Origin: an uncultured Maribacter sp.
GTDB lineage: Bacteria > Bacteroidota > Bacteroidia > Flavobacteriales > Flavobacteriaceae
DNA: 64,000 nucleotides
Assembly: GCF_947495965.1 (NCBI RefSeq)
Contig: NZ_CANMBB010000002.1
Span: 124,001-188,000 of the forward strand
Direction of reading: 5' to 3'
Both the position numbers and the translations under genes were made by a program. Below are positions 35,451 to 45,199 of the stretch, one piece after another. The notes under the pieces were generated by a model. That model saw only the letters and a list, made by a program, of their open reading frames with translations. It had not been told where the DNA came from and made no database searches. How positions within the stretch are numbered: the first letter of the stretch is position 1; the number at the start of each line of letters is the position of its first letter.

Positions 35451-36266
35451 ATGGATAAATTACCTAAAATAGCAGTGCCAGTAGTATTTGTATTGGTTTT
35501 ATTGGCAATATTAATTTCAAAATCAGCAGTAACTATTGGTTCAGGAGAGGCAGGAGTATTGTATAAAACTTTTGGTGGCGGTGTTGTTACTGATGAACCG
35601 GCAATGGGAGAGGGTTTTCATATTGTTGCACCTTGGAATAAAGTATATGTTTATGAGGTAAGACAGCAAGAAGTTTTTGAAAAAATGCAAGTTTTATCTT
35701 CTAATGGTCTAGAAATTAAGTTAGATGCTTCTGCATGGTTTCAACCAAAAATGGAGTTTTTAGGAAAATTGCACCAAGAAAAAGGGGCAGATTATGTACA
35801 GCGTGTTTTATTACCAACCATACGTTCTGCAGCTCGTAGTGTAGTTGGAAGGTATACACCAGAACAATTATACTCTAGTAAGAGAGATGCTATACAACAA
35901 GAAATTTATGAGGAAACTAAGAAAATTGTAGATGGACAATACATACAATTAAATGAAATTTTAGTGCGCGATGTAACATTGCCACCAACAATAAAAGAGG
36001 CTATTGAGCGTAAGTTAAAACAAGAGCAAGAATCTTTAGAATATGAGTTTAGACTAGTAACTGCTAAAAAAGAAGCTGAAAAAGTTACTATTGAAGCGCA
36101 AGGTAAAGCAGATGCAAACCGTATTTTAAGTGCATCTTTAACAGATAAAATATTACAAGATAAAGGTATAGATGCCACTATTAAATTATCAGAATCTCCA
36201 AATGCAAAAGTAATTGTAGTTGGTAGTGGTGATTCTGGTTTGCCACTAATATTAGGGAATAACTAA
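35451..36266 (+). CDS. prohibitin/SPFH-family membrane protein
   Basis: This 271-residue protein has an N-terminal transmembrane helix (about 7-25) and an SPFH/band-7 domain (about 26-195: SGEAGVLYKTFGGGV, RQQEVFEKMQVLSSNGLEIKLDASAWFQ, VGRYTPEQLYSSKRDAIQQEI). A coiled coil follows (about 180-225, KLKQEQESLEYEFRLVTAKKEAEK). SPFH proteins form large rings in the membrane, often holding proteases such as FtsH. Partner unknown. It probably shares the transcript of the VWA-like gene. Confidence 0.88.
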   Translation: MDKLPKIAVPVVFVLVLLAILISKSAVTIGSGEAGVLYKTFGGGVVTDEPAMGEGFHIVAPWNKVYVYEVRQQEVFEKMQVLSSNGLEIKLDASAWFQPKMEFLGKLHQEKGADYVQRVLLPTIRSAARSVVGRYTPEQLYSSKRDAIQQEIYEETKKIVDGQYIQLNEILVRDVTLPPTIKEAIERKLKQEQESLEYEFRLVTAKKEAEKVTIEAQGKADANRILSASLTDKILQDKGIDATIKLSESPNAKVIVVGSGDSGLPLILGNN

Positions 36267-36360
36267 AGAACTGTTATTTTTTTTATTAAAACATTAATAG
36301 TTGTTAAAAAAACAGTTTTTGCTTTTATGCAATTAAAATATATTTTACATTTACAAAGTA

Positions 36361-36414
36361 ATGAGAAACAAAACTACACATCATCATTTTCATACTGGCT
36401 ATCAAGCGAGGTGA
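36361..36414 (+). CDS. hisL: his operon leader peptide, His-rich (17 residues)
   Basis: The frame encodes MRNKTTHHHFHTGYQAR and stops with TGA at 36412. Four of five consecutive codons (residues 7-11) are histidine, which is the hallmark of a His-sensing leader peptide. It lies about 150 bases before hisG with an intrinsic terminator between. The stop codon lies just after the first of two identical ATCAAGCG octamers, so a ribosome reaching the stop would cover it. It is too short for protein-level recognition; the call rests on codon content and context. Confidence 0.82.
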   Translation: MRNKTTHHHFHTGYQAR

Positions 36415-36453
36415 TAATGTATTGTGTAAAATAAATATATATAACCCGTTTGA
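36401..36453 (+). promoter_or_regulatory. antiterminator of the his attenuator
   Basis: TCAAGCG at 36402-36408 can pair with CGTTTGA at 36447-36453 (one G-U), which is the 5' arm of the terminator; the pairing extends by GG-CC across one bulged A. The same ATCAAGCG octamer recurs at 36457-36464 as the terminator's 3' arm, so the two structures exclude each other. Confidence 0.7.
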
Positions 36454-36476
36454 GAAATCAAGCGGGTTTTATTTTT
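36443..36476 (+). terminator. attenuator terminator before hisG
   Basis: AACCCGTTTGA / TCAAGCGGGTT (36443-36453, 36458-36468) forms an 11-base stem with one G-U and a GAAA tetraloop, followed by TTATTTTT. It lies between the leader peptide and hisG. Confidence 0.88.
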
Positions 36477-36512
36477 AAACCAATTTGATTTCCAAACAAA
36501 ATAATAAAAGGA

Positions 36513-37370
36513 ATGACAAAAATTAGAATTGCAATTCAGAAATCTGGAAGATTAAATGAAGACTCTATAGAAATACTTAAAAACTGTGGTATATCTATAG
36601 ACAATGGTAAAGATCAATTAAAAGCATCTGCCCGTAATTTTCCTATGGAAGTTTTTTATTTAAGAAATGGTGATATTCCGCAATATTTAAAAGATGGTGT
36701 TGTAGATATAGCTATTATTGGAGAGAATGTTTTAATAGAAAAAGGAGAAGGTATTGGTTTTGATGTAAGACTAGGGTTTTCTAAATGCAAAGTGTCTTTA
36801 GCTGTCCCAAAAGAAGTAGAATATTCTTCTGTAAAAGATTTTAATGGTAAACGTATTGCTACATCTTACCCTAATACAGTAAAACAATATTTAAAAGAAA
36901 AAGGAGTAGCTGCAGATATACACATTATTAATGGTTCTGTAGAAATTGCACCTAATATTGGTCTAGCGGATGGTATTTGTGATATTGTTTCTAGTGGTAG
37001 TACTTTATTTAAAAATGGTTTAAAAGAAGTAGAAATAATGCTAAAAAGTGAAGCAGTTTTAGCTGTTTCTCCAAAAATATCTGAAGAGCGTAAAGAGATA
37101 CTTAAAAAATTACAATTTAGAATTAATGCAGTATTAACGGCTAGACAATCTAAATATGTTCTTTTAAATGCTCCAAACGATAAATTGGATAAAATAATTT
37201 CTTTATTACCAGGTATGCGAAGTCCTACTGTGTTACCATTAGCAGAAGAAGGTTGGAGCTCCGTACATACTGTTATTAATAAGCACAAGTTTTGGGAAGT
37301 TATAGATGAGTTAAAGCAAGCAGGGGCAGAAGGTTTACTTGTTTGCCCAATAGAGAAAATGGTATTATAA
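36513..37370 (+). CDS. hisG: ATP phosphoribosyltransferase (long form)
   Basis: HisG starts histidine synthesis from ATP and PRPP. The 285-residue protein is the long form: two periplasmic-binding-like lobes (RIAIQKSGRLNEDSIEIL, the PRPP motif DGICDIVSSGSTLFKNGL near 153-170) and the C-terminal ACT-like regulatory domain (about 210-285, SPTVLPLAEEGWSSVHTVI), which binds histidine for feedback inhibition. No HisZ is therefore needed. It is the first structural gene after the attenuator. Confidence 0.95.
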   Translation: MTKIRIAIQKSGRLNEDSIEILKNCGISIDNGKDQLKASARNFPMEVFYLRNGDIPQYLKDGVVDIAIIGENVLIEKGEGIGFDVRLGFSKCKVSLAVPKEVEYSSVKDFNGKRIATSYPNTVKQYLKEKGVAADIHIINGSVEIAPNIGLADGICDIVSSGSTLFKNGLKEVEIMLKSEAVLAVSPKISEERKEILKKLQFRINAVLTARQSKYVLLNAPNDKLDKIISLLPGMRSPTVLPLAEEGWSSVHTVINKHKFWEVIDELKQAGAEGLLVCPIEKMVL

Positions 37371-37380
37371 AATTTTGGCT

Positions 37381-37827
37381 ATGGAAAATGAGTTAAAAAT
37401 TTTCTTAATACCACAAGAAGAATTATACACAATTTTACCTTTAGTTGCTACTCTTAATGAAGGAAAGATAGAAAGAAAAATTCTTGAAGAGCGCTTAACT
37501 GAGATGAAGAAAATTGGTTTTCAGTGCATTGGTGTGTATGATGTAGAAAAGTTAATTGGTATATGTGGTTTTTGGATTTTAAATAAGTTTTATATAGGAA
37601 AACATATAGAACCAGATAATGTTTTTATTTCCAAAGAATATAGAAGTAGAGGTGTAGGCAAATTAATGTTAGATTGGATTTATGAGTATGCAAAAGAAAA
37701 TAATTGTAATAGCTCTGAGATTAATTGCTATGTAAAAAATACTAGAGGAGTACAATTTTGGGAAGAACAAGGATATGTTCCAGAAGGCTACCACATGAGA
37801 AACGTTTTTGATAGAAATAATGAATAA
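37381..37827 (+). CDS. GNAT-family N-acetyltransferase within the his operon
   Basis: This 148-residue protein has GNAT features: VFISKEYRSRGVGKLMLDWIYEYAKENN (about 79-106, with RxxGxG) and the terminal RGVQFWEEQGYVPEGYHM. The start is ATG 37381; a TTG at 37375 is also in frame. It lies 10 bases after hisG and overlaps hisD by 8 bases, so it is certainly co-transcribed with them. Substrate unknown; no histidine-pathway step requires an acetyltransferase here. Confidence 0.85.
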   Translation: MENELKIFLIPQEELYTILPLVATLNEGKIERKILEERLTEMKKIGFQCIGVYDVEKLIGICGFWILNKFYIGKHIEPDNVFISKEYRSRGVGKLMLDWIYEYAKENNCNSSEINCYVKNTRGVQFWEEQGYVPEGYHMRNVFDRNNE

Positions 37828-39103
37828 AATTTATAATCCAAATAAGGAAGACTGGAAAGCTATTCTTATGCGACCAACGCAAACGGTTGCAGATATAGAA
37901 GACACAGTAAATAGTATTTTTAAAGAAGTACAAGAAGGTGGTGATAGTATTTTAACTAAATACACTAAAAAATTTGATGGTGTAGCACTTTCCTCTAACA
38001 TAGTTTCTAAAGATGAAATTAATGCTGCAGGTTCTCTTATTTCTGAAGATTTAAAAAAAGCTATTCAACTAGCAAAGACTAATATTGAAGTTTTTCATGC
38101 CGCTCAAAAAACTGCTAAAGTCTCCGTAGAAACTGCTAACGGCGTACAATGTTGGCAAGAAAAACGTCCTATTCAAAAAGTTGGTTTATATATTCCTGGA
38201 GGGACAGCACCATTATTTTCAACAATTTTAATGCTTGCAGTACCTGCTAATATTGCTGGTTGCGAGGAGATTGTGTTATGTACACCTCCAGACAAAGAAG
38301 GCAATATAAACCCGGCTATACTTTATACAGCAAACCTTTGCGGAGTAACTAAAATATTTAAGGTTGGTGGTATACAAGCAATTGCGGGAATGACATTTGG
38401 GACAGAAACTATTCCAGAAGTTTATAAAATATTTGGACCTGGAAATCAATTTGTAACGGTAGCAAAGCAAATAGCAACTAAATATGGTGTTGCAATAGAT
38501 ATGCCTGCAGGCCCTAGTGAACTTTTAGTAATGGCAGACGATACTGCTAATGCTTCCTTTGTTGCTTCCGATTTGTTGAGTCAGGCAGAACATGGGGTAG
38601 ATAGTCAAGTAATCTTAGTTTCTACATCAAAAAGTATGATAGATGCTGTAGAAAAAGAAGTTGCAGAACAGCTTAATGTTTTACCTAGAAAAGAAATTGC
38701 AAAACAAGCTATTGCAAACAGTAAACTTATCTATGTAAAGAATGAGCAAATTGCAATAGATCTAATAAATGAGTACGGACCAGAACACTATATTTTGTGT
38801 GTTGCTAATGAAGCTCTTTTTATTTCTCAAATAAAAAATGCAGGTTCTGTATTTATAGGAAATTATACGCCAGAAAGTGCTGGAGATTATGCATCTGGGA
38901 CCAACCATACTTTACCAACAAACGGTTATGCAAAACAATATAGTGGAGTAAATTTAGATAGTTTTATGAAGAGTATGACTTTCCAAAAAATTACACCAAA
39001 AGGCATACAAGAAATAGGTAGAGCTATAGAACTTATGGCAGAAGCAGAAGGCCTACAAGCACATAAAAATGCAGTTACGTTACGTTTAAAAAGTTTAGAA
39101 TAA
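37820..39103 (+). CDS. hisD: histidinol dehydrogenase
   Basis: HisD performs the last two oxidations from histidinol to histidine, with zinc and NAD. The 427-residue protein has VGLYIPGGTAPLFSTILML, the signature DMPAGPSELLVMAD (about 227-240), the zinc/base region LLSQAEHGVDSQ (Gln and His near 256) and EHYILC, SVFIGNYTPESAGDYASGTNHTLPTNG (about 347-373). The start is ATG 37820, not the TTG four codons earlier. It overlaps hisC by one base. Confidence 0.95.
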   Translation: MNKIYNPNKEDWKAILMRPTQTVADIEDTVNSIFKEVQEGGDSILTKYTKKFDGVALSSNIVSKDEINAAGSLISEDLKKAIQLAKTNIEVFHAAQKTAKVSVETANGVQCWQEKRPIQKVGLYIPGGTAPLFSTILMLAVPANIAGCEEIVLCTPPDKEGNINPAILYTANLCGVTKIFKVGGIQAIAGMTFGTETIPEVYKIFGPGNQFVTVAKQIATKYGVAIDMPAGPSELLVMADDTANASFVASDLLSQAEHGVDSQVILVSTSKSMIDAVEKEVAEQLNVLPRKEIAKQAIANSKLIYVKNEQIAIDLINEYGPEHYILCVANEALFISQIKNAGSVFIGNYTPESAGDYASGTNHTLPTNGYAKQYSGVNLDSFMKSMTFQKITPKGIQEIGRAIELMAEAEGLQAHKNAVTLRLKSLE

Positions 39104-40143
39104 TGTTTAGTTTAGATACTATAATTAGAGAAAATATTAAGGGGTTACAGCCATATTCATCTGCTAGAGATGAATATGTGTCTGATGGCTCTACAATGGT
39201 CTTTTTAGACGCTAATGAAAACCCTTACAATAATGGTGTAAATAGATATCCAGATCCACAACAAAGAAGCTTAAAAACAGTATTAGCAGAACAAAGAGGT
39301 ATTGCATCAGAAAATATACTTCTAGGAAACGGTAGCGACGAAGTTTTAGACTTACTATTTAGAGCTTTTTGTGAACCAAATGTAGATGCTATTATTAGTT
39401 TGCCTCCTACATATGGTATGTATAAGGTTTTATGTAATATTAATGCTATAGAGAATAAAGAAGTTCTATTAACAAAAGAATTTCAGCCAGATGTTGAAGC
39501 AATATTAAATACAATAACCGAGACTACAAAAATTCTTTTTATTTGTTCGCCAAACAATCCAACTGGGAATACTATTTCAAAAAGTAAGATTTCAGAATTA
39601 TTAACTAATTTTAAAGGTTTAGTAGTTATAGACGAAGCTTATATAGATTTTTCTGAAGATGAAAGTTGGGTTAGAGAATTAGCAAATTATCCAAATTTAA
39701 TAATAACACAAACATTATCTAAAGCCTATGGTATGGCTGGTATACGTTTAGGTATTTGTATAGCATCTAAAGAAATAATAGCGGTTTTAAATAAGATTAA
39801 ACCACCATATAATGTAAATGAATTAACGCAGAAAAAAGCATTAGAACGTGTTATTGATAAAAAATCGGTAGCTACAGAAGTGCAAAATATTCTTAAAGAA
39901 AGAGATGCTTTAATACGTGCGCTGCAAGATATATTTTATGTAAAAGAAATATATGCTACAAACGCAAATTTTGTGCTTGTAAAGGTGGATGATGCTACAA
40001 AAATATACAATCAATTATTAGAAAAAGGTATTGTTGTTCGTAATAGAACTACACAGGCTTTGTGTGAGAATACTTTGCGCTTTACCATAGGAACAACCCA
40101 AGAAAATAATGCTTTAATAAAAGCTTTAAAAGAATTAGTATAA
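39103..40143 (+). CDS. hisC: histidinol-phosphate aminotransferase
   Basis: HisC transaminates imidazole-acetol phosphate. This 346-residue fold-type I PLP enzyme has [12 protein letters not shown] (about 74-85), CSPNNPTGN (about 147-155), VIDEAYIDF (about 173-181) and the Schiff-base lysine in [14 protein letters not shown] (Lys near 208). It starts on the hisD stop and ends one base before hisB, showing tight coupling. Confidence 0.95.
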
Positions 40144-40144
40144 A

Positions 40145-41284
40145 ATGAAAAAAGTACTTTTTATAGATCGTGATGGCACATTGGTTTTAGAGCCTCCTGT
40201 AGATTATCAATTAGATAGTTTAGAGAAATTAGAATATTATCCTAAAGTATTTCAATACATGGCTAAAATAGCTTCTGAATTGGATTATGAACTAGTTATG
40301 GTTACTAATCAAGATGGTTTAGGAACCGATTCTTTTCCTGAAGATACATTTTGGCCAGCACAGAATAAAATTATTTCTGCTTTTGAAAAAGAAGGCGTTG
40401 TTTTTGAACAAGTGTTTATAGATAAAACTTTTCCTCATGAAAATGCTGAAACACGTAAGCCAAGAACAGGTTTACTTACCAAGTATTTTAATAAAGAAGA
40501 ATACGATTTAGAAAATTCTTTTGTGTTAGGAGACCGTATTACTGATATGGAATTGGCAAAGAATTTAGGGGCAAAAGGAATATTTTTATCAGAAGACCCA
40601 GAATTAGGCGCAGATGAGATAGAGGCTAATACGCAAACTATTTTAGATGCTATTGTGTTAACATCTACAGACTGGGAAAAAATATATAAGTTCTTAAAGT
40701 TAGAAGACAGAGTTGCAGAAATTACACGCGACACCAATGAAACTAAGATTTATATTAAGTTAAACCTAGATGGTTCAGGAAAAAATAACATCTCTACTGG
40801 ATTAGATTTCTTTGATCATATGTTAGACCAAATTGGCCGTCATGGCGCTATGGATTTAACAGTAAAAGTAGATGGTGATTTACATGTCGATGAGCATCAT
40901 ACTATAGAAGATACAATGATTGCTTTAGGGGAATTATTCGCAAAAGCTTTAGGAAACAAATTAGGAATAGAACGTTACGGGTTCTGTTTGCCAATGGATG
41001 ATTGCCTTGCGCAAGTTGCGGTAGATTTTGGAGGAAGACCTTGGTTAGTTTGGGATGCCGATTTTAAACGTGAAAAAATTGGAGATATGCCAACCGAAAT
41101 GTTTTTGCATTTATTTAAATCATTTTCTGATGGAGCAAAATGTAATTTAAACATTAAGGCAGAAGGGGATAACGAGCACCATAAAATAGAAGGTATTTTT
41201 AAAGCTTTTGCTAAAGCAATGAAAATGGCTGTAAAAAGAGATGTAAATAAAATGTTTTTGCCAAGTACAAAAGGTATGCTTTAG
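40145..41284 (+). CDS. hisB: bifunctional histidinol-phosphatase / imidazoleglycerol-phosphate dehydratase
   Basis: This 379-residue fusion enzyme has an N-terminal HAD phosphatase (about 1-165; DRDGT at 8-12, [11 protein letters not shown], and [14 protein letters not shown]) that makes histidinol, and a C-terminal IGP dehydratase (about 188-379) with the metal motifs DEHHTIEDT (about 254-262) and [15 protein letters not shown] (about 347-361). The fused form is shared with enterobacteria and many Bacteroidota. Confidence 0.95.
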
Positions 41285-41289
41285 CATAC

Positions 41290-41355
41290 CAGTACTTAGT
41301 TCAAAGTAAAGAGTAATAAGTTTTTTATGATAGACTTAGTACTAGTTACTTAATA
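41290..41355. repeat. AGTACTTAGT-type repeat region, hisB-hisH gap
   Basis: AGTACTTAGT at 41291-41300 recurs in a related form CTTAGTACTAGTTACTTAATA at 41335-41355. The gap is 82 bases, while hisD, hisC and hisB are packed with gaps of at most one base. Confidence 0.5.
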
Positions 41356-41366
41356 TTAAATAAACA

Positions 41367-41948
41367 ATGAAAATAGTAATTATAAATTACGGAGCGGGGA
41401 ATATTCAGAGTATCAAATTTGCGATAAAGCGTTTAGGGTATGAAGCTGTTTTAACAGATAATGTAGAAGAAATAAAAGCTGCCGATAAAGTTATTTTTCC
41501 AGGAGTAGGAGAGGCAAGTAGTGCTATGGCTAAACTTAGAGATAGTGGGTTAGATACGCTTGTACCAAATTTAAAGCAACCAGTTTTAGGTATTTGCTTA
41601 GGAATGCAACTAATGTGTAATACTTCTGAAGAAGGAAGTACAAAAGGGTTAGGGATTTTTGATGTTGATGTTATAAAATTTAATAATGAAGTAAAAGTTC
41701 CACAAATTGGGTGGAACGAAATTTCTGATTTAAAATCCCCTTTATTTTCTAATATAAAAGATAATGCGCACATATACCTAGTGCATAGTTTTTATGCTCC
41801 CATATGTGATGAAACAATTGCAACTTCTGGCTATGGAATTAATTATAGTGCTGCTTTGCAAAAAAATAATTTTTATGGTACACAATTTCACCCAGAAAAA
41901 AGTAGCAAAGTAGGAGAACAAATATTAGAGAATTTTTTAAGCATTTAA
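41367..41948 (+). CDS. hisH: imidazole glycerol phosphate synthase, glutaminase subunit
   Basis: HisH supplies ammonia to HisF. The 193-residue class I glutamine amidotransferase has INYGAGNIQS, the oxyanion loop FPGVGEAS, the nucleophile Cys in PVLGICLGMQLMC (Cys near 76), and the His/Glu of the triad in GTQFHPEKSSK (about 172-182). Confidence 0.95.
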   Translation: MKIVIINYGAGNIQSIKFAIKRLGYEAVLTDNVEEIKAADKVIFPGVGEASSAMAKLRDSGLDTLVPNLKQPVLGICLGMQLMCNTSEEGSTKGLGIFDVDVIKFNNEVKVPQIGWNEISDLKSPLFSNIKDNAHIYLVHSFYAPICDETIATSGYGINYSAALQKNNFYGTQFHPEKSSKVGEQILENFLSI

Positions 41949-41952
41949 TTGT

Positions 41953-41978
41953 ATTAAGTACTAAGTAAATAGTATATA
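41953..41978. repeat. AGTACTAAGTAAATAGTA repeat, left of the four-helix-bundle gene
   Basis: Made of AGTACTAAGTA and GTAAATAGTA units; the same units in reverse orientation lie right of the gene (42365-42396), giving an imperfect inverted-repeat pair around it. Confidence 0.5.
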
Positions 41979-41979
41979 G

Positions 41980-41987
41980 TAGCTTTG
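41980..41987 (+). promoter_or_regulatory. candidate internal promoter -7 element (TAGCTTTG)
   Basis: TAGCTTTG matches TAnnTTTG and lies 15 bases before the ATG at 42003, so the four-helix-bundle gene may carry its own promoter. Confidence 0.45.
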
Positions 41988-42002
41988 TGTTATAGTTGAT
42001 GT

Positions 42003-42347
42003 ATGAATAAATATGAGGATTTAAAAATTTGGCAAAAGGCAATGGATCTCGTAGAGTTAATGAAAGATATGCCAGCAGATGAAATATATGGATTAACTTC
42101 ACAGATTAAACGATGTTCTATTAGTATTCCTTCCAATATTGCAGAAGGAGCTGGAAGAAATTCAAACAAACAGTTTGCTCATTTTTTAAGTATCGTTAAT
42201 GGTTCAACAACCGAATTAGAAACTCAAATATTACTAGTGCAAAGATTAAAATTATGCTCGGAAAATAAAATAAAGCCAATATTAGATATATGTATTGAAG
42301 TTAAAAAAATGAATTTTTCATTACAAAGAAGTTTGAATAAAGAATAG
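42003..42347 (+). CDS. four-helix-bundle protein (23S rRNA intervening-sequence protein family)
   Basis: This 114-residue all-helical protein has the family's pattern: YEDLKIWQKAMDLVELM, YGLTSQIKRCSISIPSNIAEGAGR (the most conserved part, about 35-58), FAHFLSIVNGSTTELETQILL and a last helix. The family was first seen in intervening sequences of 23S rRNA genes and is common as single genes in Bacteroidota; the molecular role is not known. It lies in the his operon between hisH and hisA, flanked by inverted AGTACTTAGT-type repeats, and may be a mobile or recently inserted element. Confidence 0.9.
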   Translation: MNKYEDLKIWQKAMDLVELMKDMPADEIYGLTSQIKRCSISIPSNIAEGAGRNSNKQFAHFLSIVNGSTTELETQILLVQRLKLCSENKIKPILDICIEVKKMNFSLQRSLNKE

Positions 42348-42364
42348 AGAAAAATATTTAATGA

Positions 42365-42396
42365 TTAGTACTGCTTACTTAGTACTATTTACTAGA
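42365..42396. repeat. TTAGTACTGCTTACTTAGTACTATTTACTAG region, right of the four-helix-bundle gene (in two parts)
   Basis: Contains TACTTAGTAC and TATTTACT, the reverse complements of units found left of the gene. Together they flank the gene about 390 bases apart. Confidence 0.5.
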
Positions 42397-42401
42397 AAAA
42401 A

Positions 42402-43139
42402 ATGAGAATAATACCAGCAATAGATATAATAGAAGGACAATGTGTAAGGCTATCTAAAGGAGATTATGATACCAAGAAAATTTACAATGAGAATCCATTA
42501 GAAGTAGCTAAAGAGTTTGAAGATCATGGAATAACTCATTTACATTTGGTAGACCTAGATGGTGCAAAATCTAAACATATTGTAAATCATAAAATACTTG
42601 AGCAAATTGCTAGTAAAACCAGTTTAAAAATTGATTTTGGCGGTGGTTTAAAGACAGATGATGATTTACGTATTGCTTTTGAAAGTGGTGCTAATCAAAT
42701 AACAGGGGGCAGTATTGCAGTAAAAGATAGAGAAACTTTTACCAAATGGATTTCTAATTTTGGAGCAGAAAAGATTATCCTTGGTGCAGATGCTATGGAT
42801 GAAAAAGTTGCTGTATCTGGTTGGTTAGAAGAATCTAAAGAGGAGTTAGTTCCTTTTATTCAAGGCTACCAAAAAGAAGGAGTAAGCTATGTTATTTGTA
42901 CCGATATTAGTAAAGATGGCATGTTACAAGGTCCTTCTTTTGCTTTATATCAAAAAATAATAGAGCAATCAGAATCTGGTTTAAAGCTTATAGCAAGCGG
43001 TGGTATTTCTACCTTTGATGAATTACCAAAACTTGCTGAAATAGGTTGTGAAGGAACCATAATTGGTAAAGCTATTTATGAAAATAGAATTAGTCTAAAA
43101 CAATTAGAAGGTTTTATATTAAATAATAGTGCTGAGTAA
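42402..43139 (+). CDS. hisA: ProFAR isomerase
   Basis: HisA isomerises ProFAR to PRFAR. This 245-residue TIM barrel has [20 protein letters not shown] (catalytic Asp8), [35 protein letters not shown] (second Asp near 169) and [12 protein letters not shown], the half-barrel phosphate motifs. It is homologous to hisF downstream. Confidence 0.95.
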
Positions 43140-43242
43140 TTAGTATCTATCCTAAAAAATGAACAAGTCATTGCAAAACAATTTAAAAGAATAATAATCT
43201 ATATGTAGTATTACGTATTTAGCTCGCAAACTACTAATTACT
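43135..43242. repeat. AGTAATTAGTA / TACTAATTACT inverted repeat, hisA-hisF gap
   Basis: Perfect 11-base arms at 43135-43145 (overlapping the hisA stop) and 43232-43242 enclose 86 bases with no coding capacity. The interior has no further clear structure. Confidence 0.6.
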
Positions 43243-43250
43243 TTAAATAA

Positions 43251-44006
43251 ATGCTTACTAAAAGAATTATCCCTTGTCTAGATATAAAAAATGGTAGAAC
43301 TGTTAAAGGTGTAAATTTTGTTGATTTAAGAGATGCAGGTGATCCTGTAGAACTTGCAGAAATTTATGCAGCTTCTGGAGCAGATGAATTGGTGTTTTTA
43401 GATATTTCTGCAACTGAAGAGCGTAGAAAAACATTAGCAGAATTAGTCTACCATGTTGCAGAGAAAGTAAATATCCCATTTACAGTTGGTGGTGGAATAT
43501 CCTCAGTTGAAGATGTAGATATACTTTTGCAAAACGGTGCAGACAAAGTTTCTATAAATTCTTCTGCGGTTAAAAATCCACAATTAATTAATGATTTAGT
43601 TGCTAAGTTTGGCTCTCAATGTATAGTGGTAGCTATAGATGCAAAAAAGATTGACGGCGAGTGGTTTGTACATTTAGTTGGAGGTAAGGTTCCTACGGAG
43701 TTAAATTTGTTTGATTGGGCAAAAGAAGTAGAAGAAAGAGGGGCTGGAGAAATACTTTTTACTTCTATGAATAATGATGGTACTAAAGACGGATTTGCAA
43801 ATGAGGCATTAAATAAATTGTCTACAGAGTTAAATATTCCTATAATTGCCTCTGGAGGCGCAGGATCCATACAACATTTTACAGATACATTTGTAAAGGG
43901 TAAGGCAGATGCAGCTTTAGCTGCAAGTGTTTTTCATTTTAAAGAAATTGAAATTATAGATTTAAAGCGTCAATTAAAAAAAGAAGGAATACCAGTAAGA
44001 TTATAA
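43251..44006 (+). CDS. hisF: imidazole glycerol phosphate synthase, cyclase subunit
   Basis: HisF makes IGP and AICAR using ammonia from HisH. This 251-residue TIM barrel has [19 protein letters not shown] (Asp11), [29 protein letters not shown] (catalytic Asp near 130), [14 protein letters not shown] and [12 protein letters not shown]. It ends three bases before the next gene. Confidence 0.95.
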
Positions 44007-44009
44007 GTT

Positions 44010-44591
44010 TTGATTAAAGCAACAGAAAAGGATAAAGATTTAGTAGTTAGTATATTAGTTTCGGCTTTTAAAGATTTGGAAGAGGATAATTCTATTAACT
44101 TTATTGTGGAAAATGGAGAGGATAGAATTGATAGAATGAAAGCACTAATGGGATATTTATTCGAAAAATCAATGCTTTTTGGCGAGGTATATTTATCTCA
44201 GAATAAAAATGCATGTCTTTTACTATCTTTTTCCGAAAAAGAAAAAATTACCTTAAAAACTATAGGTTTAGATATAAAATTACTTTTTCGTTGTATTGGT
44301 TTTAAGAATTTATTTAATGTGTTAAAAAGGCAAAAAATAATTAAAGATTTTTATCCAAAAGAAGCACATATAAAACCAGTTATTATGGGAGCTTTAAAAG
44401 AAGCTTATGGTAGTGGTTCTGCGGCAAGGATGGTGTTACGAGTAATGAGTCAATATAAAAGAAATAAAAAACCTGTAGTTTTAGATACAGTATCTGAGTA
44501 TAATATAAAACTGTATCAAAAATTTGGTTTTAAAATAATAAGAGAGGAAAAAACATTAGGCTTTCCTATAAGTTTACTACGATTAAATTAA
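44010..44591 (+). CDS. GNAT-like acetyltransferase within the his operon
   Basis: This 193-residue protein has a GNAT-type layout: IKATEKDKDLVVSILVSAF at the start, YLSQNKNACLLLSF in the middle, a long helical insertion (about 88-125) and the C-terminal LDTVSEYNIKLYQKFGFKIIREEKTLG (about 163-187), typical of the family. The usual RxxGxG loop is reduced to AYGSGSAARMVLRV (about 137-150). The start is TTG 44010, three bases after hisF. The substrate is unknown. Confidence 0.7.
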   Translation: MIKATEKDKDLVVSILVSAFKDLEEDNSINFIVENGEDRIDRMKALMGYLFEKSMLFGEVYLSQNKNACLLLSFSEKEKITLKTIGLDIKLLFRCIGFKNLFNVLKRQKIIKDFYPKEAHIKPVIMGALKEAYGSGSAARMVLRVMSQYKRNKKPVVLDTVSEYNIKLYQKFGFKIIREEKTLGFPISLLRLN

Positions 44592-44599
44592 TAGAAGTA

Positions 44600-45199
44600 A
44601 TGAAAATAGATTTCGATAAAAATAAGGATGGTTTAGTACCAGCAATTATACAAGATGCTACTACTAAAAATGTGCTTATGCTAGGGTATTTAAACCAAGA
44701 AGCATATGATAAGACTATAGAAACTAACAAGGTTACTTTTTTTAGTAGAAGTAAACAGCGATTATGGACTAAAGGTGAAGAAAGTGGAAATTTCTTAAAT
44801 TTAGTTTCTATTAAAAACGATTGTGACAACGATTCTTTATTAATTAAAGTAAACCCAGTAGGGCCAACATGCCATACAGGTACAGATACATGTTGGAATG
44901 AAGAAAATGATTCTAGCTTTGGGTTTATATCTAAATTGGAAAAAACAATAGAACAAAGAAGAATATCATCAGACAGTACAAAATCTTATGTTGCTTCTCT
45001 TTTTGAAAAAGGTATAAACAAGCTAGCTCAAAAAGTAGGAGAGGAAGCTGTAGAAGTTGTTATTGAGGCTAAAGATGATAATGATGATCTATTCTTAAAT
45101 GAAAGCGCAGATTTACTTTTTCACTATTTAATGCTTTTGCAAGCCAAAGGTTTTACTTTAAAAGATATTGAAAAAGTTTTAAAAGGAAGAGAAAAATAG
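44600..45199 (+). CDS. hisIE: bifunctional phosphoribosyl-AMP cyclohydrolase / phosphoribosyl-ATP pyrophosphatase
   Basis: HisIE performs the second and third steps of histidine synthesis. This 199-residue fusion has an N-terminal HisI (about 1-110) with the zinc/magnesium motifs SRSKQRLWTKGEESGN and CDNDSLLIKVNPVGPTCHTGTDTCW (Cys/Asp ligands), and a C-terminal HisE (about 112-199) with KSYVASLFEKGINKLAQKVGEEAVEVVIEAK. It closes the operon before a strong terminator. Confidence 0.95.
   Translation: MKIDFDKNKDGLVPAIIQDATTKNVLMLGYLNQEAYDKTIETNKVTFFSRSKQRLWTKGEESGNFLNLVSIKNDCDNDSLLIKVNPVGPTCHTGTDTCWNEENDSSFGFISKLEKTIEQRRISSDSTKSYVASLFEKGINKLAQKVGEEAVEVVIEAKDDNDDLFLNESADLLFHYLMLLQAKGFTLKDIEKVLKGREK

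Follow-up and report, generated by a model that had tools for sequence, protein, structure and literature searches.

Comparative evidence for ribosome-mediated attenuation of the histidine operon in Maribacter and other Bacteroidota

The his attenuator of enterobacteria, represented in Rfam by RF00514, comprises a leader ORF with His codons, a pause or anti-antiterminator hairpin, an antiterminator and an intrinsic terminator before hisG, and the E. coli leader carries seven His codons. A comparative study of attenuation published in 2010 by Lopatovskaya and colleagues, and cited in PMC4833913, may include Bacteroidetes. In the Firmicutes, the available text of PMC2965389 and PMC9413887 describes short ORFs with consecutive His codons before hisS/hisZ or his genes, and the latter paper describes a terminator and an antiterminator for such a leader; the term 'bacteroid' does not occur in the main text of either. 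For the Bacteroidota, the available parts of the literature list Bacteroid-trp (PMC2864571), mention leader-peptide-like short ORFs in B. thetaiotaomicron (PMC7366714) and, in a 2021 transcriptome study of F. psychrophilum (PMC9723704), report strong clues for leader-peptide attenuation before amino-acid operons, together with a structured element 5' of hisG, present also in other Flavobacteriaceae genera, that is without Rfam hits. For that element, the available text neither spells out a leader sequence or a pairing model nor extends its range past the family, and within the accessible portion of the open-access literature no description of a his leader across the Bacteroidota was found. The principle of attenuation is textbook knowledge and the existence of a his attenuator in this locus is unsurprising to a specialist; what is worth having is its wide range, the co-evolving antiterminator and a predicted near-leaderless start.

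The hisG leader considered here lies in a 64,000-nt stretch of DNA from a marine bacterium of the genus Maribacter (the window). It resembles the enterobacterial his attenuator by mechanism, with a His-codon leader ORF, an antiterminator, an intrinsic terminator and a probable pause hairpin in front of hisG, but has three tandem His codons plus one in place of the E. coli seven, and its antiterminator strand occupies the extreme end of the leader ORF. With the Firmicutes attenuators, as described in the available text, it shares a short upstream ORF of consecutive His codons, but in another phylum and with other sequences, and with Bacteroid-trp (RF01692) it shares the phylum and a leader-peptide RNA, although the latter has Trp codons and a different RNA. 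The window contained no match to Rfam 15 at the gathering score, and hence no T-box or other Rfam riboswitch in the leader region. Against RF00514 the hisG leader scored 34.8 bits (gathering score 49), and none of 60 family genomes passed the cut-off under stricter filters. The best RF00514 score in the window's genome was 37.5 bits, at G000:C11:44426-44528 on the minus strand, which is below the cut-off and not at hisG. Membership of the window in RF00514 was rejected, given its sub-threshold score and the higher score elsewhere in the same genome. RF01692 was not among the 15 matches listed for the hisG leader at E values up to 10; the trpE leader of the same genome scored 45.9 bits against it, just below the gathering score of 49, and 40 of 60 family genomes pass this cut-off (48 of 60 at E ≤ 0.001). 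The original prediction that the enterobacterial logic of his attenuation operates in this phylum is supported, although leader-peptide attenuation had already been described or suggested there (Bacteroid-trp; PMC9723704, available text).

The element is very probably an attenuator of his operon transcription of the classical, ribosome-mediated (leader-peptide) type, for which the comparative evidence is strong. Its features were defined in the window and by comparison with a close set of 81 loci, consisting of the window and 80 relatives picked by HisG similarity alone, blind to the leader:

36346-36353, + strand: Bacteroidota -7 promoter box TACATTTA (consensus TAnnTTTG), from position and close-set comparison
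36361-36414, + strand: leader peptide ORF of 17 codons plus TGA, encoding MRNKTTHHHFHTGYQAR, from direct reading of the window
36375-36428, + strand: P1 hairpin over the leader ORF, proposed pause/anti-antiterminator (MFE -18.3 kcal/mol in the window)
36379-36387, + strand: the sensor, three tandem His codons (codons 7-9), from the leader alignment
36402-36412, + strand: 5' strand of the antiterminator, UCAAGCG, a bulged A and GGU, from pairing computations
36443-36468, + strand: intrinsic terminator stem-loop (11 bp, GAAA loop), from folding, terminator scan and close-set comparison
36444-36453, + strand: 3' strand of the antiterminator, most of the terminator 5' arm (ACCCGUUUGA), from pairing computations
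36469-36478, + strand: U-rich tail of the terminator (TTATTTTTAA), from the terminator scan
36513-37370, + strand: hisG, first gene of the regulated operon (Pfam HisG 3.3e-49, HisG_C 5e-30)
37375-45199, + strand: rest of the his operon (GNAT gene, hisD, hisC, hisB, hisH, 23S_rRNA_IVP gene, hisA, hisF, an ORF and hisIE), from ORFs and Pfam

Direct reading places the leader ATG at 36361 and the TGA stop codon at 36412-36414, with His at residues 7, 8, 9 and 11, and the predicted 17-codon frame with four His codons among residues 7-11 is exact to the base. The terminator was also confirmed as predicted, with an 11-base stem formed by 5' arm AACCCGTTTGA (36443-36453) and 3' arm TCAAGCGGGTT (36458-36468), a GAAA loop (36454-36457) and a U-rich tail; the spacer between leader stop and terminator is 28 nt, and the hairpin ends 44 nt before hisG. 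It is the sole terminator-like site in 35500-37500, a count that is not significant by itself because shuffles give 0.7 on average. The octamer ATCAAGCG does occur twice, at 36401-36408 and 36457-36464, with the first copy complementary to 36447-36453, and its repetition reflects competition between leader codons 14-16 and the terminator 3' arm for one 5' arm. The antiterminator 5' strand spans from the last base of leader codon 14 to the first base of the stop codon. As a whole, the 116-nt element exceeds chance: it folds with an MFE of -35.4 kcal/mol, where shuffled sequences average -16.1 (z -6.5; reached by 0 of 200 shuffles), and pairing of the leader with the terminator arm exceeds dinucleotide shuffles at p = 0.015, or 0.03 with a wider arm (200 shuffles each). 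A conserved GAGG at the leader end was considered as a Shine-Dalgarno signal and rejected, as its pairing with the CC of the terminator arm would explain it.

The tandem-His ORF therefore lies directly before the first his gene, an intrinsic terminator lies between leader and hisG, and computed pairing gives an antiterminator that is exclusive with the terminator, freed by a His stall and masked by a ribosome at the stop codon. From these sequences we infer the start site, stalling, read-through and histidine response. Transcription would begin 2-3 nt before the leader ATG, to judge from the promoter box, and by default, with no ribosome present, P1 would fold and hide the antiterminator strand, so that the terminator would halt transcription before hisG. 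When histidine is plentiful, the ribosome would reach the stop codon at 36412-36414 and cover 36402-36412, and the terminator would form. When histidine is short, the ribosome would stall at codons 7-9 and break P1, with its leading edge just before the antiterminator strand; the freed strand would then pair with the emerging terminator 5' arm and polymerase would continue into the operon.

The leader, its His run, the terminator and the exclusive pairings can be followed, with their conservation and co-evolution, through the sequences of relatives. In 79 of 81 close-set loci, a short ORF with a His run lies upstream of hisG. The other two are L012, whose leader is intact except that Tyr replaces the first His, and L078, where the 180 nt upstream before the contig end contain no leader. 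His-rich leaders also precede hisG in 20/20 same-family loci (all those with a HisG match examined beside the window; one, L195, duplicates close-set L004, leaving 19 additional), 32/32 same-order loci outside the small-genome family f69 (32 of 34 genomes with a match, omitting G132, in which the gene is split over contigs, and G209, a weak match), 51/59 same-class loci (all 59 found in two draws) and 29/56 loci from the rest of the phylum (56 of 95, of which 19 were returned by search and 37 hand-chosen for spread, with most of family f76 omitted). The leader was absent from all 15 f69 loci examined (of 19) in the same order, whose 0.6-Mb genomes are presumably those of endosymbionts. Overall, a His-run leader was present in 132/182 loci versus, by the same criterion, 4/182 reverse-strand and about 3/182 shuffled upstream regions. 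The CCCGTTTGAG terminator occurs in all 79 close-set leader loci and terminators accompany the leader in 79/79 close-set, 20/20 family, 32/32 order, 37/51 class and 13/29 phylum loci, counts that depend on the threshold, as L086, L092 and f39 loci (A-T-rich hairpins) may have weak terminators. These sequence comparisons suggest that the His attenuator is widespread in Bacteroidia having hisG and that most relatives in the class use such a switch.

Some loci depart from this arrangement. Four f39 loci of the same class (L114, L131, L226 and L230) have a His leader and a small inverted repeat near the leader stop, and in L114, L226 and L230 an apparent A-T-rich hairpin with a T run, seen by eye, was missed by the terminator criteria. 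Twelve loci of one family outside the class (L164, L166, L167, L169, L171, L176, L231, L238, L241, L245, L247 and L250) have a His leader and no intrinsic terminator by the criteria used; the leaders contain 8-11 His in 15-34 residues in 11 loci and 4 His in L176, while the 75 nt past the leader stop contain 5-9% G and 21-29% C and are weakly structured except in L176. These G-poor spacers resemble Rho loading sites and possibly reflect the same control exerted through Rho or at the level of translation.

Within the close set, 74 of the 79 leaders align without gaps (five of other lengths were dropped). Residues 7-9 are His in 74/74 and residue 11 in 14/74, such that the predicted conservation of the His codons in close relatives holds with the exception of residue 11. 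Extra His residues enter the leaders as whole codons, and elsewhere a fourth His is a whole codon added to the run, unlike the unconserved one at residue 11 in the window. Synonymous CAC codons make up 20 of the 222 His-run codons, which argues indirectly for translation of the leader.

The position of the His run relative to the antiterminator is also constrained. Among the 98 family loci used for geometry and arm variation (79 close-set loci plus 19 of the 20 same-family loci, L111 being absent), 90 have exactly 15 nt between the end of the His run and the antiterminator core, and the distance from the first His codon to the core is 24 nt in 54 loci and 27 nt in 37, two main values that arise because the run has three or four His. 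A ribosome covers approximately 15 nt ahead of its A site. When the ribosome was modelled as a block with a moving front edge on a transcript ending just past the terminator 5' arm, the probability of the window antiterminator was 0.01-0.23 for front edges at 0-15 nt, 0.98-1.00 at 18-42 nt, 0.48 at 45 nt and 0 from 48 nt; a ribosome stalled at codons 7-9 has its modelled edge within the open interval, and one at the stop codon has its edge beyond it. Across the family (98 of 99 loci scored), this probability exceeded 0.5 in 98/98 loci when the edge lay between 15 nt upstream of the core and the core start, and in 0/98 from 3 nt into the core, although the modelled stop-state result follows because masking itself imposes that outcome. 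The predicted roles of the first octamer copy in blocking the terminator, and of a ribosome at the leader stop in masking that copy, are strongly supported by the comparison and the modelled folding. In every modelled state, the terminator prevails at equilibrium after it has been transcribed in full (97/97 loci; 97 of the 98 family loci modelled, L204 skipped), and the switch must therefore be kinetic, decided while polymerase is near, as in other attenuators.

Co-evolution of the leader end and the terminator arm was assessed by pairing the stretch between the His run and the terminator with the terminator 5' arm and scoring it against dinucleotide shuffles. Pairing reached p ≤ 0.05 in 70/79 close-set, 19/20 family, 26/32 order, 19/37 class and 12/13 phylum terminator loci. 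Of 31 families, 22 include one or more such loci and the other 9 include none. The alternative pairing is conserved in close relatives, as the original prediction held. Outside the close set, 75 of the 76 significant cases had the antiterminator midpoint within the footprint of a ribosome at the stop codon, where random placement would give 50.2. Family loci share an almost fixed terminator 5' arm, CGTTTGAG (97/98), and their leaders vary mostly by changes of the A-U to G-U type. The two octamers hardly covary there because the arm is nearly invariant, and the anticipated co-variation, for which close relatives are hardly informative, is one-sided inside the family and convincing between families.

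Outside the family, regulatory sequences differ widely, which makes a swap test informative. With one locus from each of 31 families, leader ends paired with their own terminator arm at -16.23 kcal/mol versus -12.23 kcal/mol with foreign arms, and 0 of 20,000 permutations were as good. Shuffled leader ends kept a small own-foreign signal (126/20,000), indicating that base composition contributes a little, and after this signal was subtracted still none of 20,000 permutations reached the own score. The own leader end was the best partner in 5 of the 31 families and among the top five in 16 (median rank 5, worst 23). With 41 representatives, 11 of them from family f75, the values were -15.98 (own) and -11.80 (foreign), again with 0/20,000, and the shuffled control gave 1,385/20,000.

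A third hairpin, P1, can hide the antiterminator when no ribosome is present, and the 'minimal two-structure switch' of the original prediction is therefore probably wrong. The apex of P1, at 36375-36428 in the window, pairs the antiterminator GCG with codons 12-14, with a pairing probability above 0.5 in 79/79 close-set leaders on a transcript ending before the terminator arm. Leaders up to the terminator fold better than shuffles, with a mean z of -3.1 in both the close set and the family, -2.9 in the order, -2.2 in the class and -1.5 in the phylum. Pairing of the His-codon segment with the post-stop segment is weak in single sequences, reaching p ≤ 0.05 in 18/79, 8/20, 11/32, 17/37 and 1/13 loci of these sets, respectively; the corresponding swap test over 31 families gave 0/20,000 both before and after composition control. 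On an alignment of 25 leaders (in which a few rows, L004, L013 and L033, were cut a few bases away from the leader start), 77% of cells can pair in the window's P1 structure versus 38-46% when the structure is slid, and 0 of 500 shuffles reach its covariation score. Eight P1 pairs have changes on both sides, a count that uses the structure taken from the window itself and is equalled when the structure is slid by +3 columns, while three outer pairs are broken in 19-20 of the 25 rows, and RNAalifold, run unprompted on the 25 leaders, did not recover P1. Without a ribosome, the antiterminator probability has a family median of 0.65, exceeds 0.5 in 50/97 loci and is 0.23 in the window, so sequestration by P1 is not uniform. 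P1 is probably the pause and anti-antiterminator hairpin of the classical scheme, and its role as the default OFF state is likely, though less firm. The post-stop motif (A/G)TGTATTGT at 36417-36425, part of P1, is highly conserved in the close set, seemingly above what P1 pairing alone needs.

Transcription of the leader may begin unusually close to its start codon. The -7 box sits 7 nt before the leader ATG in the window, with a T-run at the position of the -33 element (36323-36326) 19 nt upstream of the box, and in 70 of the 79 close-set leader loci, window included, the distance from the end of TAnnTTTR to the ATG is 7 or 8 nt; a purine occupies -3 in 77/79. In F. johnsoniae, the published distance from -7 box to start is often 4-5 nt. 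Transcription is accordingly predicted by box spacing to start at approximately 36358-36359, implying a 5' UTR of 2-3 nt, which would be an uncommon arrangement. The short spacing is clade-specific: in the additional same-family set it is 17-35 nt in 11 of 20 loci, 7-8 nt in 5 and 1 nt in 1, with no nearest -7 box found in 3 of the 20. The trpE leader of the same genome also has a 7-nt spacing, and trp leaders of family genomes (n = 29, leaving out a thirtieth locus that gave no Trp leader) have spacings of 4-8 nt in 9 and 11-21 nt in 20.

Other explanations of the locus would place its function in the peptide, in the terminator alone or in a different stop signal. The leader could encode an arrest peptide or functional small protein, with its QAR end as a peptide motif and the terminator incidental, in keeping with the presence of Q in 72/74 and A in 74/74 aligned leaders. 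However, three leaders from Maribacter and Kriegella (L018, L022 and L029) carry the stop codon TAG in place of the Gln codon CAG, and QAR is gone from the peptide while the complementary bases and their pairing are kept, so that it is the RNA, not the peptide, that is conserved there. Similarly, Gln is replaced by Arg in three leaders with the pairing kept and by Leu in one with one pair lost, the third position of codon 13 is C in 74/74 leaders while the amino acid varies, and the C-termini in other orders are quite different yet still complementary to their own terminators. The conserved QAR was rejected as a peptide signal on account of the stop-codon variants, and an arrest peptide or small protein is highly improbable.

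A constitutive partial terminator before hisG, with no histidine sensing and a His run due to chance or composition, would agree with the terminator being the stable end state in every modelled condition, but is exceedingly improbable given His-run leaders before hisG in 132/182 loci versus about 3/182 in shuffles, and the fixed distance from His run to antiterminator. Control through hisG translation or Rho, instead of an intrinsic terminator, is also very unlikely here, since a hairpin and U tract lie between leader and hisG in the window and in all 79 close-set leader loci, even though 30 of the 132 leader loci have no terminator by the criteria, including the 12 described above, which belong to one family from outside the class and have a G-poor spacer past the leader. 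Ribosome-mediated attenuation by the leader peptide remains the preferred reading.

The genes downstream would form one transcript, judging from their spacing and strand; hisF and hisIE were assigned by reading the translation, and hisC, hisH and hisA by general Pfam families and position. Three further genes are interspersed in the operon: a GNAT acetyltransferase gene (37375-37827) between hisG and hisD, a gene for a 23S rRNA-intervening-sequence-type protein (42003-42347; PF05635, 1.1e-32) between hisH and hisA, and a 193-aa ORF (44010-44591) between hisF and hisIE with no Pfam match at 1e-5. Short leader ORFs rich in the fitting amino acids also precede trpE (MRNKKTNTWWWSNLRKTT), pheA (MINKYFFNSFTFYFFFKRSTGLF) and ilvD (MKLTRTVVSTIFIVP) in the same genome, and of these the trp leader alone matches an Rfam family at E ≤ 0.1. 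By eye, each of the three, L264 (pheA; Phe/Tyr), L266 (trpE; Trp) and L268 (ilvD; Val/Ile), is followed by a hairpin and T run. His attenuation therefore seems to be one of a set in this genome.

Taken together, and in a joint reading that could equally be right or wrong as a whole, his attenuation would be ancestral in the Bacteroidia and kept in most histidine-making members despite ribosomes without Shine-Dalgarno pairing. The regulatory RNA would have turned over completely, with the leader end and the terminator arm preserving its logic by evolving together. In the clade of Maribacter, Zobellia and Muricauda, the leader would lie on a near-leaderless transcript (5' UTR 2-3 nt), on which the first ribosome would have to load behind polymerase at the extreme 5' end; outside the class, one or more lineages may have exchanged the intrinsic terminator for another stop signal. 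The his leader offers an RNA family still unmatched by Rfam, and its wide occurrence in the Bacteroidia argues that leader-peptide control of his genes is old in the phylum and not a proteobacterial specialty. It also provides a sequence-explicit assay for the tight coupling of transcription to translation in a phylum where Shine-Dalgarno sequences are ignored by the ribosomes: if the attenuator works, the pioneering ribosome must closely trail RNA polymerase in the Bacteroidota too.
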